Shown here: piece by piece, positions 33,732-38,854 of the stretch
Layout: the number at the start of each line of letters is the position of its first letter
How positions within the stretch are numbered: position 1 is the first letter of the stretch
NCBI GenBank assembly: GCA_020630395.1
Contig: JAHDBM010000021.1
Coordinates: 1 to 45,692 of the forward strand
Length of the DNA: 45,692 bases
Direction of reading: 5' to 3'
Source: Flavobacteriales bacterium
Lineage (GTDB): Bacteria > Bacteroidota > Bacteroidia > Flavobacteriales_D > CAJJDF01
The notes under the pieces: model-generated
What the model was told of the DNA's origin: nothing
The model's database searches: none
Seen by the model: the letters and a program-made list of their open reading frames with translations, nothing else
Position numbers and translations under genes: made by a program

Positions 33732-34649
33732 TTGGAACTAATAAAACAAGTCATTAATGATCTAATTGATGCAAATATATCTTTAGAAGCACCTCTTTTG
33801 AAAACAAAAGTTTTAGCTACTAGAATTAATAATCAAGAATTATTATCATGGGTTAATCAGGAGCTTACAGGATACCCTGAAAATATAGTTCCTGCCTACC
33901 GAATATATACTTGTTCAATTATTGGGGCATATAATACATTGGATAAAGAATATAAAGGTATTCAAATACCTACTGAAGGATTAGATACATCAATACGAGA
34001 TGAACTTAAATATTTCAAGTTTAACCAAGGTGTTTCTTCCTTAGAAAGTATAATTAAAGAACCAGGCTCTGGTATTTTAGAAAGAGAATTAACGGCAGAG
34101 TTAATTAAAGTGATAGAAGCTAATATGAAAAGTTACATGAACATGTCAATTTTGGATTTATATGACTGTAGGCTTAGAACAGCACCAAATGTGATTAATC
34201 AATTATTGTCAATTGTTAAATCAAGGCTTTTAGATTTTATGCTTGAGTTAGAAAATAAATTTGGAATTAAAGCTGAAATAGAAACATTAAAAACTAACAA
34301 TCAAATTATTACTAATATGGTAACTAACAATATAACTAATAACGGAGATGGTAATGTTACTAACACAGGCAATGACTCTAAGTTAAAAGCTAAAATAAAT
34401 ATTAAGAAATTAAATAAGCAAAGTTTAAGGGAAGGTCTTTTGTCTAATAAAGTTAGTGAGGAAGATATCAATGAACTATTAAGTATAGTAGATAAAGAAG
34501 AAATAACAAACCCTGATAATTTTGGAAAGCCAATTAATTCTTGGATATCAAAAATGTATAATAAAGCATTAAATGGCTCTTGGGATGTAGCTTCAGGAGC
34601 AGCTGGAGGCATTTTAACCACAATTATAAGCCAATATTATGGCTTATAA
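33732..34649 (+). CDS. AbiTii-domain protein, probable abortive-infection/defence factor
   Basis: The 305-residue protein starts at TTG (33732). Residues 1-50 (LIKQVINDLIDANISLEAPLLKTKVLATRI-NNQELLSWVNQELTGYPE) match my recollection of the AbiTii domain of abortive-infection proteins, and the YRIYTCSIIGAY segment continues it. Helices run to about 187, then a low-complexity Asn/Thr linker (NMVTNNITNNGDGNVTNTGN, about 195-215). A helical C-terminal domain ends in a short hydrophobic stretch (WDVASGAAGGILTTIISQYYGL). That layout would suit a sensor or assembly domain joined to a membrane-directed effector end. No partner, methylase, nuclease or mobile gene is adjacent. Biological role is inferred from the domain only. 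Confidence 0.7.
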   Translation: MELIKQVINDLIDANISLEAPLLKTKVLATRINNQELLSWVNQELTGYPENIVPAYRIYTCSIIGAYNTLDKEYKGIQIPTEGLDTSIRDELKYFKFNQGVSSLESIIKEPGSGILERELTAELIKVIEANMKSYMNMSILDLYDCRLRTAPNVINQLLSIVKSRLLDFMLELENKFGIKAEIETLKTNNQIITNMVTNNITNNGDGNVTNTGNDSKLKAKINIKKLNKQSLREGLLSNKVSEEDINELLSIVDKEEITNPDNFGKPINSWISKMYNKALNGSWDVASGAAGGILTTIISQYYGL

Positions 34650-34998: not shown

Positions 34999-37428
34999 TT
35001 ACAATAACTTAACCTTATTCATACCTCTTTCAGAGAAACGAATATTTAGCCCTACTAAAAAATTACGTGTTGCTTGAGGATAATATCCTTCTAATTGTTG
35101 AAACTCCCCGCCACTTGAGTATCGATAAATCCATCCGTTAGTTTCATATAACTCGTTAAACAGATTGTTTATAGAGCCAAATAACTGAAAAGACATTCCG
35201 TTATTTAGTCTAAGGTTATAGTTCATTCTTAAATCATGCACTAAAAAAGCATCTAATGCTCTATCATCACTTTGTGTGTTATCCATATATTGCTTACTCA
35301 CATATTTCGACACAAATGAAATTGTAAAATCATCAATTCGATTGTTAACTGTAGGTCCATCAAATTGCTTGTATGGATTAAATTCAAAAATACTACTTAC
35401 AATCGTAGAAGGAGAAAAAGCAATATCAGTATTACTGTGGTTTACTGTGTCTTTGCCCCAAGTATCCCAATTATCAACATATTCGGTCCATTCTTGTATT
35501 TTGTTCTGTGCAAAAGCTACATTACCTCTCCAAGATAATCCTTTGGTTAATTGAACACCACCTTCAATTTCAACACCTAGTCTATACGAAGATTCAATAT
35601 TAGTTCTAACAGATGCACCCACATCATTAATTTCACCAGTAGGTACTAGTTGATTATTATAACCCATATAGTAACCATTTATGCCCAGTGCATATTTGCT
35701 TTTATTTAATTTATAGCCTAATTCTAAATTATTAAGTGTTTCATGTTTTGGTCTACTATTAGGCGTAGATTCAGTTAAATCATCTCTGTTAGGTTCTTTG
35801 TTAGCAACAGCAAATAAACCGTAAAATCGGTTACTGTTATTTAGTTGGTAGTTAAAGCCTAGTTTAGGATTAATAAAAGAATATCGAGCGTTTTGCGTAA
35901 TGTTATTTAAGACATTATCAAACCCTAAAAATGTATAATCTATAGTTCTTAATTGGATATCAGCAAATAAACCAAGTTTACCAATTAAGTAATTCACTTT
36001 GGCATAAGAGTTAATGTCTACTTTGGAAGCAGTATTATCATAGTAACGATCTCTTATTTCTGAATTTCCAGCAAAACGAGCCCAAATAACTTCACCAAAA
36101 TGATCTCCTTTATATTCGTTAATTGCACCACCAAACGTAATATCGAGTTTGTTAGAAGGTGTATAGTGTAACGAAAATACAGAGCCATAAAAATCATTGT
36201 CTAACCATCTTCTTCTAATAAGATCACTGGTAGTAATGGTATCATTAGGAGTTGTAACAGGATCAATGCCATAATCAGCAAGATCATCTCCAGTTCTAAA
36301 TTGCTCGAAATACCCTTGTCCTTTAGTGTAGTGAAGTGCTACATTTAATAATAAATCATCTGCTAATTGGCGATTATAGAACAATTGATAGTGGGTTTGT
36401 TGATAGTTATCCACTTCATTATCGTAAGTGTAAACGTTATAGGTCCTGTTTGTTTCTAAAGAATCTTTTGGTATACCTCCCCAAGCTTGATAGGTCTTTT
36501 CTTTTCCTGAAAAAGTAATAAGCCTTAAGCTGTTTTTTTTGTCTAAATATTGTCCAGATAAATAATAAGATTTTAAATCCGAAGAAGCTCTATCTACATA
36601 ACCATCAGATTGTATATTGGATAATCTACCTTCAAAAGCAAAACGATTATTGATTAAACCTGATCCAAATCGCACGGTATTTTTCATGGTGTTAAAAGAT
36701 CCAAACGAGTTGTTTATTTCTCCATAAGCTTTTTCAGATAAATTGTTTGTCAGTAAATTTACGCTAGCACCAAAAGCACCTGCTCCATTGGTTGATGTAC
36801 CCGCACCTCTTTGTACTTGAATGTTTTCTAATGAAGAAGCGAAATCAGGCATGTTGACCCAAAATACTCCATGGGATTCTGGATCATTTAAAGGAACTCC
36901 ATTAATGGTAACGTTAATTCTAGTAATATCAGTTCCTCTAATACGCATACTGGTATATCCAATTCCAGCACCAGCATCAGAGTTTACCACCATAGAAGGT
37001 GTATTACCAAGTAAAAAGGGGATGTCTTGACCTAAATTAGTTTCTCGAATTTCTTTATTGGTAACGTTTGTAACTGTACCAGGAGTTTTTTTGTCTACAC
37101 GAGTAGCTTGTACTACCACTTCATTTGCAATATAAGGTTTAGCTTTAAGTTGTATTGTGTTAGGAGAAATTTCATTATTTGCAATACTAACTTGTGTTGT
37201 TAATGGATAAAAACCAAGTCTTGTAATGGTTAGGTTAGCTTTATTACTAGTAGATGATAATTGATATTCACCTTTATTATTCGAAAATATAGGATTTGTG
37301 CTACCATTAACGTAAATAATTGCACCTTCTACAACATTGCCATTTAAGTCTTTAATGAATCCCTTAATTTGGGAGAATGTCATATTACTAAATGCAAATA
37401 AAAATAAAATACAGAGTGTTTTTTTCAT
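34999..37428 (-). CDS. TonB-dependent receptor, probably for thiamine or a thiamine precursor
   Basis: The 809-residue outer-membrane receptor has a signal peptide (1-20, ending MTFSQ), a carboxypeptidase-regulatory-like domain (IKGFIKDLNGNVVEGAIIYVNGS..., about 21-105), a plug domain (VTNVTNKEIRETNLGQDIPFLLGNTPS...MRIRGTDITRINVTINGVPLNDPES, about 115-225) and a 22-strand-type barrel ending ATRNFLVGLNIRF. It imports its ligand with energy from TonB-ExbBD. The leader carries a promoter, a TPP riboswitch and a terminator-like hairpin, so expression should fall when thiamine pyrophosphate is plentiful. Thiamine-regulated TonB receptors of this kind have been described in Bacteroidota (Omr1). Substrate identity is inferred from the riboswitch, not from the protein. 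Confidence 0.92.
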   Translation of the reverse strand: MKKTLCILFLFAFSNMTFSQIKGFIKDLNGNVVEGAIIYVNGSTNPIFSNNKGEYQLSSTSNKANLTITRLGFYPLTTQVSIANNEISPNTIQLKAKPYIANEVVVQATRVDKKTPGTVTNVTNKEIRETNLGQDIPFLLGNTPSMVVNSDAGAGIGYTSMRIRGTDITRINVTINGVPLNDPESHGVFWVNMPDFASSLENIQVQRGAGTSTNGAGAFGASVNLLTNNLSEKAYGEINNSFGSFNTMKNTVRFGSGLINNRFAFEGRLSNIQSDGYVDRASSDLKSYYLSGQYLDKKNSLRLITFSGKEKTYQAWGGIPKDSLETNRTYNVYTYDNEVDNYQQTHYQLFYNRQLADDLLLNVALHYTKGQGYFEQFRTGDDLADYGIDPVTTPNDTITTSDLIRRRWLDNDFYGSVFSLHYTPSNKLDITFGGAINEYKGDHFGEVIWARFAGNSEIRDRYYDNTASKVDINSYAKVNYLIGKLGLFADIQLRTIDYTFLGFDNVLNNITQNARYSFINPKLGFNYQLNNSNRFYGLFAVANKEPNRDDLTESTPNSRPKHETLNNLELGYKLNKSKYALGINGYYMGYNNQLVPTGEINDVGASVRTNIESSYRLGVEIEGGVQLTKGLSWRGNVAFAQNKIQEWTEYVDNWDTWGKDTVNHSNTDIAFSPSTIVSSIFEFNPYKQFDGPTVNNRIDDFTISFVSKYVSKQYMDNTQSDDRALDAFLVHDLRMNYNLRLNNGMSFQLFGSINNLFNELYETNGWIYRYSSGGEFQQLEGYYPQATRNFLVGLNIRFSERGMNKVKLL

Positions 37429-37499
37429 GTTTTCCTTATAAATAGTTGTTTTGTAAACTGTTATTGGAAAGCAAAAATTAGGGTAAGATATACCACATT

Positions 37500-37523
37500 A
37501 AAAGTCTAATTGAATAGACTTTT
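37500..37523 (-). terminator. hairpin after the TPP aptamer (candidate expression platform)
   Basis: AAAAGTCTA (37500-37508) and TAGACTTTT (37515-37523) are perfect 9-bp arms with a 6-nt loop. Read on the minus strand it directly follows the aptamer and ends in TTTTAATG, so it can act as a weak intrinsic terminator controlled by the riboswitch. The receptor start is 72 nt further on. Confidence 0.65.
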
Positions 37524-37526
37524 TGC

Positions 37527-37600
37527 ATAATCCCTTCTATGAATTACCACAGCAGGTTCAGTGGGTATAATCTCAGCCTTTAATAGTTGGCACCCCAATA
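37527..37600 (-). ncRNA. TPP (THI-box) riboswitch
   Basis: On the minus strand the conserved THI-box segments occur in order: GGGGTGCC, GGCTGAGATTATACCC, ACTGAACCTG, TGGTAATTCAT and AGAAGGGA. These form the two sensor arms that hold thiamine pyrophosphate. The closing P1 stem is weak by eye. It lies between a consensus promoter (37611-37640) and a terminator-like hairpin, and controls the TonB-dependent receptor at 34999-37428. Confidence 0.93.
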
Positions 37601-37610
37601 ACATTTACAT

Positions 37611-37640
37611 CAAAGGTATATGTTTTTTGAAGCCAGTCAA
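37611..37640 (-). promoter_or_regulatory. Bacteroidota consensus promoter of the riboswitch-receptor transcript
   Basis: On the minus strand TTG (37640-37638) is followed after exactly 19 nt by TACCTTTG (37618-37611), a full match to the TTG-N19-TAnnTTTG promoter of Bacteroidota. Transcription would start near 37604, a few bases before the TPP aptamer. Confidence 0.75.
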
Positions 37641-37675: not shown

Positions 37676-38263
37676 ATGAAATATTTTTCACTTGTTTGTA
37701 TCGTGTTTTTGTTTTCTTGTGTCAGCAAGAAAAAATATGCTGGATTAGAAAAAGAGAAAGCTATACTAGCAGGTAAAGTTGAGAAGCTAAACAAACAAAA
37801 TGGAGAATATTTAGCTGATTTAGAGAAAAAAGATAAAGTTAATAAGCAGTTGAAAATTCAAAATGAACGATTAGAAGAACAACTCAAAGAATCTAAACGA
37901 GAAGGCTTAGACAATTTCATGACAAATCCACCTGTAGATGAAGAAGATTTAACATTGCCTGCAGGAGCTTCTAAAGCCTCATTTGTTGGAGGGAATCAAG
38001 CTATGCAAAATTTTATTATACAAAACATTCGTTATCCTCAGTTGGCTAAAGAAGCTGGAATACAAGGTAAGGTATTCGTTTCTTTTATAGTAGAGAAGAG
38101 TGGAACTGTTAGTAATGTTGAGATTATTAAAAATGCTCATCAGTTATTAGATAAAGAGGCTATGCGTGTTGTGCGTTCAATGCCTAAATGGAAGCCAGCA
38201 CAATTAAATGGAGTTTACATGAAGTCCAAACAAAAATTACCAATAGTATTTAAATTAGATTAA
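37676..38263 (+). CDS. lipoprotein with a TonB C-terminal domain
   Basis: The 195-residue protein has a lipoprotein signal (MKYFSLVCIVFLFSC, cysteine at 15, then VSKKK), a lysine/glutamate-rich coiled coil (about 20-85) and a TonB-type C-terminal domain (about 105-195). The latter includes IRYPQLAKEAGIQGKVFVSFIVEKSGTVSNVEIIK, LDKEAMRVVRSMPKWKPAQLNG. Ordinary TonB proteins are anchored by a membrane helix that contacts ExbB/ExbD; here a lipid anchor replaces it, so energy transduction in the usual way is doubtful. It is divergent from the thiamine-type receptor gene and followed by a paralogue. Function is inferred only from the domain. Confidence 0.85.
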   Translation: MKYFSLVCIVFLFSCVSKKKYAGLEKEKAILAGKVEKLNKQNGEYLADLEKKDKVNKQLKIQNERLEEQLKESKREGLDNFMTNPPVDEEDLTLPAGASKASFVGGNQAMQNFIIQNIRYPQLAKEAGIQGKVFVSFIVEKSGTVSNVEIIKNAHQLLDKEAMRVVRSMPKWKPAQLNGVYMKSKQKLPIVFKLD

Positions 38264-38329: not shown

Positions 38330-38854
38330 ATGAAAAAAATATTTATAGGAATCATTATGTTGCCTCTTGTAGCTTGTGTTAGTACAAAAGATTTTGCAAG
38401 AGTAGAAGAAGAAGTTAAAACGTTAAGAGAAGAAAATAAAGCATTACGTGACGCAGTAGTACGAATGGATGAACGAACAAATGCTATCGTTCGTTCACTT
38501 AATGGAACAGCAAATGCTGGTCAACAGGCGCAAAAACAACCTGAAATTACTCCAGAAACTGTTTTTAGACAAGCTGATGTTATGCCTTCATATCCAGGGG
38601 GAGATAAGGCGTTATTTGAGTTTTTTGGAAAGAATTTTAAATGGCCAGAAGGTGTAGAGTTTAAAGGGCAACTAGAAACTCAATTTGTAGTAGAACCAAC
38701 AGGTCAAATATCTAATTTTTCTTTTACAAAAGAAGGACCAAAGAAAATTCAAGAAGCTATTATAGAGGTTTTCACGAAAATGCCAAGATGGCAACCTGGA
38801 TCAATTAAAGGAAATAAAGTAAGAGTATTGTATACATTGCCGATTACGATATAA
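38330..38854 (+). CDS. second lipoprotein with a TonB-like C-terminal domain
   Basis: The 174-residue product has the same layout as its upstream neighbour: lipoprotein signal (MKKIFIGIIMLPLVAC, cysteine at 16, then VSTKD), a coiled coil (RVEEEVKTLREENKALRDAVVRMDERT), a Gln-rich linker and a TonB-like domain (SYPGGDKALFEFFGKNFKWPEG...FKGQLETQFVVEPTGQISNF...MPRWQPGSIKG). The CVS(K/T)K start of the mature part supports tandem duplication with strong divergence. It probably works with the protein at 37676; the role is unknown. Confidence 0.82.
   Translation: MKKIFIGIIMLPLVACVSTKDFARVEEEVKTLREENKALRDAVVRMDERTNAIVRSLNGTANAGQQAQKQPEITPETVFRQADVMPSYPGGDKALFEFFGKNFKWPEGVEFKGQLETQFVVEPTGQISNFSFTKEGPKKIQEAIIEVFTKMPRWQPGSIKGNKVRVLYTLPITI

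Follow-up and report, generated by a model that had tools for sequence, protein, structure and literature searches.

The window, by which is meant the whole stretch of 45,692 nucleotides analysed here, carries a gene for a TonB-dependent receptor on its minus strand, preceded by a leader with a THI-box (TPP-type) aptamer. No riboswitch class is more widespread than that of the TPP riboswitches. The features, roughly in the order in which the minus strand reads them, are:

37638-37640, minus strand: TTG, the -33 promoter element, separated from the -7 element by 19 nt (sequence)
37611-37618, minus strand: -7 promoter element TACCTTTG (sequence)
37514-37607, minus strand: THI-box (TPP-type) aptamer, compact J4/5 variant, RF00059 42.2 bits
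37571-37576, minus strand: CUGAGA, the J3-2 T-loop of the pyrimidine pocket, intact (scan alignment, family comparison)
37533-37556, minus strand: compact P4-P5 arm, CCU-G-CUGUG[GUAAUU]CAUAG-A-AGG, without the canonical AU/CG of the pyrophosphate loop (alignment, covariation)
37500-37523, minus strand: 9-bp A/U-rich hairpin AAAAGUCUA/UAGACUUUU, no recognisable intrinsic terminator
37452-37473, minus strand: anti-aptamer strand UGCUUUCCAAUAACAGUUUACA, complement of the aptamer 5' strand at 37589-37608 (duplex test)
37429-37435, minus strand: GGAAAAC right before the start codon, predicted to pair with the freed anti-aptamer UUUCC when the aptamer is forced
34999-37428, minus strand: TonB-dependent receptor of the OMthi type, 809 aa, with CarboxypepD_reg, Plug and beta-barrel (homology)

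The leader runs from TTG over 19 nt to TACCTTTG, then through the THI box and the 9-bp hairpin to the receptor ATG at 37428. Promoter, THI box, hairpin and start codon follow one another as the first-pass annotation had described. The Bacteroidota promoter consensus is TTG-N19-TAnnTTTG, which the TTG/TACCTTTG pair fits, and a TAnnTTTG -7 element occupies the same place in six of six genomes of the family. Going by the promoter position, the transcript probably starts close to the aptamer. The annotation had also described a hairpin ending in TTTT. The hairpin is real, but the TTTT lies inside its stem and no U-run comes after it. Since a terminator scan also found no intrinsic terminator in the leader, a transcription-terminator mechanism was discarded.

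TonB architecture and homology to OMthi place the receptor with OMthi/omr1. It is 42% identical to a Bacteroides finegoldii receptor that is encoded beside pnuC and a thiamine diphosphokinase, and 70% identical to a receptor on CATLPG010000031.1 (L007). An operon of receptor, pnuT and tnr3 (OMthi, BT2390) has been studied in B. thetaiotaomicron (PMC5613172). The OMthi of Bacteroides and the receptor in the window belong to the same TonB-dependent receptor family, and both have a THI-box leader. They differ in what surrounds them: the Bacteroides operon has pnuT and a kinase behind the receptor, whereas the window receptor has neither, and the next gene downstream (33732-34649, plus strand) is convergent. 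The leaders differ too, as the one in B. finegoldii has a canonical-type loop and scores 63.9 bits, while that in the window is compact. Thiamine-linked control of this outer-membrane receptor, as originally proposed, is supported by the THI box, the OMthi homology and the same leader before Bacteroidota orthologues.

The neighbours themselves are of some interest. The convergent gene has an AbiTii domain (PF18864, E 1e-35) and is a candidate phage-defence gene. On the other side, two genes with a TonB C-terminal domain (37676-38263 and 38330-38854, both plus strand) diverge from the receptor's promoter region.

With default settings, an Rfam scan finds no match in the window, because the aptamer scores below the gathering cutoff. 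A low-threshold scan matches the full RF00059 model (1-105) at 42.2 bits with an E-value of 5e-7, where the gathering cutoff is 54.3 bits; the score by itself does not make this element a member of the family. The Rfam TPP-model check on the minus strand, as suggested in the first-pass annotation, did therefore produce a match, but a sub-cutoff one. The low-threshold scan returned RF00059 only, and no HMP-PP riboswitch match. The aptamer at 37514-37607 is the sole TPP match in the 3.5-Mb genome. Each of the six family genomes has exactly one such element, at 40.4 to 44.5 bits, which makes the low score a property of the lineage and not an accident of one copy. The cause is that the pyrophosphate pocket lacks its conserved J5-4 CG.

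This CG is also the exception to the claim that all conserved THI-box segments are there. P2, P3 and the J3-2 UGAGA of the pyrimidine pocket are present, J2-4, P4, G60 and loop L5 are intact, and L5 has the UNR loop that docks on P3 (GUAAUU in the window). P1 is weak or absent: its duplex comes to -2.1 kcal/mol with a z of 0.1, which is hardly detectable. A first count pointed to a general lack of P1 in compact elements, but the duplex test did not uphold this, with medians of -3.4 kcal/mol for compact and -3.65 kcal/mol for canonical elements.

The window arm reads ACCUG-CUGUG-GUAAUU-CAUAG-A-AGGGA, where canonical relatives have ACCUG-AU-CCGG-GUAAUG-CCGG-CGA-AGGGA. The 3x3 internal loop J4/5 (GAU/CGN) is absent. 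Instead, there is an extra P5 pair, making five in all, plus one G/A mismatch, so that only G60 opposite A79 stands between P4 and P5. Among the bases lost are C77 and G78 (E. coli thiM numbering), whose loop has given way to a base pair; G60 is kept. In TPP riboswitches, G60, C77 and G78 position a metal ion, and G78 hydrogen-bonds the pyrophosphate (PMC3764141). According to a later review C77 joins in this bonding (PMC7824784). High conservation is described for the nucleotides that touch TPP (PMC7824784), and G60, C77 and G78 are listed as highly conserved in the class (PMC3764141, PMC7824784).

The extra P5 helix is maintained, not a product of decay. Over 31 distinct cores, the extra pair is AU in 8, CG in 7, GC in 7, UA in 4, GU in 3, UG in 1 and otherwise in 1 (a mismatch). 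This means that all four Watson-Crick types occur. For the whole arm in the same cores, 98.4% of cells pair versus 75.6% when shuffled, and both sides have changed in 61 cells versus 16. The covariation score is 0.637, compared to 0.166 for shuffled and at most 0.159 for slid arms. None of 500 shuffles matched the paired fraction, the double changes or the covariation score. The base equivalent to G78 is a G in only 9 of the 31 cores. A79 is an A in 30 of 31, at a position which the pattern left free and at which canonical elements vary. UAAU is found in L5 of all 31, where the search pattern demanded TART. The covariation of the arm and the near-constant A79 together indicate that a helix kept by selection has taken the place of the loop, with a new constraint of a G facing an A. 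Within the family, the aptamer core is invariant in all six genomes despite diverged flanks.

The compact-arm pattern prescribes length only and demands no pairing. In a phylum-wide sample of 395 genomes it matches 35, and the reversed pattern matches 0. The matches are 35 of the 98 sampled genomes of the window's class, roughly a third, and 0 of the 297 from other classes. Within the order the form occurs in 18 of 299 genomes, and in the family in six of six. The canonical-loop pattern matched 134 genomes throughout the phylum sample. Four compact elements (G163, G042, G069 and G301) score above the Rfam cutoff and are filed simply as TPP, which makes the departure from the TPP class a graded one.

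Compact leaders nearly always precede the same kind of gene. There are 48 distinct ones among the fetched loci, and 46 of these stand ahead of a homologue of the window receptor. One more precedes a truncated frame resembling a receptor start, for a total of 47 of 48. The remaining leader (L087, G352:C134) has compact length but a mismatched P5, and lies ahead of a Thi4-like thiazole synthase gene. Of the canonical elements, 67 stand before receptors, a number raised in part by the search for receptors, and 23 before other genes, chiefly thiS and other thiamine genes. With so many receptors of other clades behind a canonical loop, the compact form is not something that the receptor needs. In a Flavobacterium-like genus (g9, named from its proteins), most sampled genomes have two elements: thiS has a canonical one of 63-75 bits in front of it, the receptor a compact one of 34-45 bits. 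A missing thiamine pyrophosphokinase was considered as the cause of the compact loop and dropped, since Flavobacterium-like genomes have both.

On a receptor tree of 122 rows (FastTree), on which gain and loss are not distinguishable, the compact state changes at least 8 times, and at least 3 of these changes are forced by well-supported branches. One compact leader sits inside a group of Spirosomataceae whose remaining members have canonical loops or loops of another kind. We read the compact leader as a recurrent, gene-specific variant of the TPP riboswitch.

The genome also gives some idea of where its thiamine comes from. No ThiC was found in any of the family genomes, that of the window included, and no PF04263 kinase in the window's genome. 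It does have ThiL and one PnuC-like gene, on another contig. From this, the supply route is likely import of thiamine, conversion to TMP by some kinase, and then to TPP by ThiL. In several compact-bearing genomes of the Flavobacteriaceae, the receptor is found near a PnuC/PnuT-type transporter and a NadR-like kinase.

Switching can be approached through predicted folds. The anti-aptamer duplex in the window comes to -19.2 kcal/mol (z -3.8, p 0.005, shuffle test). The free leader has a predicted MFE of -49.9 kcal/mol with the aptamer broken, and forcing the aptamer gives -37.0. When no ligand is bound, the anti-aptamer strand would pair with the 5' strand of the aptamer and so break it. Once the aptamer has formed, the freed strand may pair with GGAAA before the AUG, shutting translation off. 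Such an OFF switch acting on translation is the least certain step of the model. Predicted accessibility of the start region changes in no consistent way over all leaders, which leaves the translational output step weak, and a class-wide translational OFF switch by sequestration of the start site was given up on the same grounds. A comparable strand, often CCCCUUUU versus AAAGGGG, is found in most compact leaders, and its end mostly lies 12-34 nt short of the AUG. When leaders are taken singly, 9 of 49 reach significance in the anti-aptamer shuffle test, and the mean z is -1.2. The partner sequences vary from genome to genome in the window's family, with the pairing retained.

Compact leaders of Flavobacteriaceae (L093, L097, L104, L113, L115 and similar) also have a conserved terminal hairpin, GAATAAT-CCCC-TTTTATTC, whose C-rich loop faces the GGGG of the aptamer. 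Behind it, at the start codon, comes a second hairpin, CGTAA..TTACGAATG.

With the phosphate pocket replaced by a plain helix, the leader may not sense vitamin B1 in the way that the textbook switch does. Its ligand is very likely a thiamine compound, because the pyrimidine pocket is preserved and because of the gene context. The aptamer would keep its grip on the aminopyrimidine, have lost the pyrophosphate loop of C77, G78 and Mg2+, and most likely still sense thiamine status. Altered phosphate recognition appears the best reading, because the loss of contacts is confined to importers and coexists with canonical synthesis switches. We think it rather probable that the leader is a cis riboswitch derived from the TPP class with retuned phosphate recognition, which would either bind TPP more weakly or hold thiamine or TMP more nearly as it holds TPP. 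Expression of the importer would then persist at TPP levels high enough to silence a canonical biosynthesis switch. Thiamine was found to repress the biosynthesis operon of B. thetaiotaomicron, but hardly changed its transporter transcripts (PMC5613172). This pattern fits looser or translational control of import, although, as far as a close relative shows, the B. thetaiotaomicron leader is not compact. A bolder version holds that compact-J4/5 THI-box RNAs are a distinct class, binding thiamine or TMP without any need for the pyrophosphate, so that import would be controlled by another form of thiamine than the TPP of biosynthesis; this is possible, and we advance it tentatively.

The most serious competitor, though a somewhat unlikely one, is an ordinary TPP riboswitch. 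The compact loop would then be neutral, G60, A79 and the backbone would provide normal Mg2+-TPP affinity, and switching would be as usual for OMthi. G60, the UGAGA loop, J2-4 and L5 are indeed all retained, the leaders of orthologous receptors do have canonical loops, and there are the four compact elements above the Rfam cutoff. What this leaves unaccounted for is the absence of C77 and G78, which are direct contacts and highly conserved in the class (PMC3764141, PMC7824784). The change is moreover specific to receptors and recurrent on their tree, and the same genomes have a canonical thiS element.

It could also be that a related compound imported by the receptor is sensed, such as HMP, another pyrimidine or a breakdown product of thiamine. 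The intact pyrimidine pocket would allow this, and with ThiC found in none of the family genomes an imported precursor could help. We consider it improbable, as the neighbours of these receptors point to thiamine itself, both in Flavobacteriaceae (the PnuC/PnuT-type transporter and NadR-like kinase) and in Bacteroides (pnuC and thiamine diphosphokinase). Most improbable of all is that the leader is a relic in decay, without any regulatory role left. Such a relic would explain the sub-threshold score and the weak P1, but not a core that is invariant over six family genomes with diverged flanks, the strong compensatory changes in P5, or the promoter and anti-aptamer pairing that have been kept.

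Several known systems can be compared with this leader. With RF00059 it shares P2, P3, UGAGA, J2-4, P4, G60, P5 and the UAAU of L5, as well as a thiamine-linked gene and a position in the 5' leader behind a promoter. It differs in having a fifth P5 pair and G/A for the GAU/CGN of J4/5, in the loss of C77 and G78, in its sub-gathering score and in its weak P1. The HMP-PP riboswitch (thiS motif, PMC6478431) likewise senses a compound of the thiamine pathway, but it is a small, terminator-embedded aptamer with a pseudoknot, unlike this leader. Closer in kind are the c-AMP-GMP variants of c-di-GMP-I and ykkC subtype 2 (PMC7266159), where changes are also confined to the pocket and go with a distinct gene association. 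Those variants have altered specificity, whereas an altered ligand preference in the window variant is suggested by sequence comparison.

THI boxes before TonB receptors in Bacteroidota are already known as a broad class. The first-pass annotation was right to call the class not new, with this instance giving a substrate, but it missed the variant without the canonical pyrophosphate-contact loop. This variant recurs in front of the receptor family, and TPP as its ligand cannot simply be assumed. Full-text searches of open-licence literature turned up no earlier description of the compact J4/5 form, and likewise no specificity-altered THI-box variant; prior notice elsewhere is possible. The receptors have gone unannotated as thiamine importers because their leaders are mostly under the Rfam cutoff. 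A form that is gene-specific, kept by covariation, recurrent on the tree and devoid of pyrophosphate contacts would be a natural rebuilding of the pocket in the TPP class. It raises a testable question: are vitamin import and synthesis tuned by two differently built aptamers in one genome?

Other receptor leaders show further departures in J4/5, for example CCTG-TACACGGGTAATGCCGCAGC-AGGG. These are found in L034 and L067 (Spirosomataceae) and in L033 and L046. The pyrophosphate loop seems to be loosely held in receptor leaders generally. In Marivirga, two THI boxes stand in tandem ahead of one receptor (L029:3614 and L029:3854), of which the first has an odd J4/5 and the second a canonical one.
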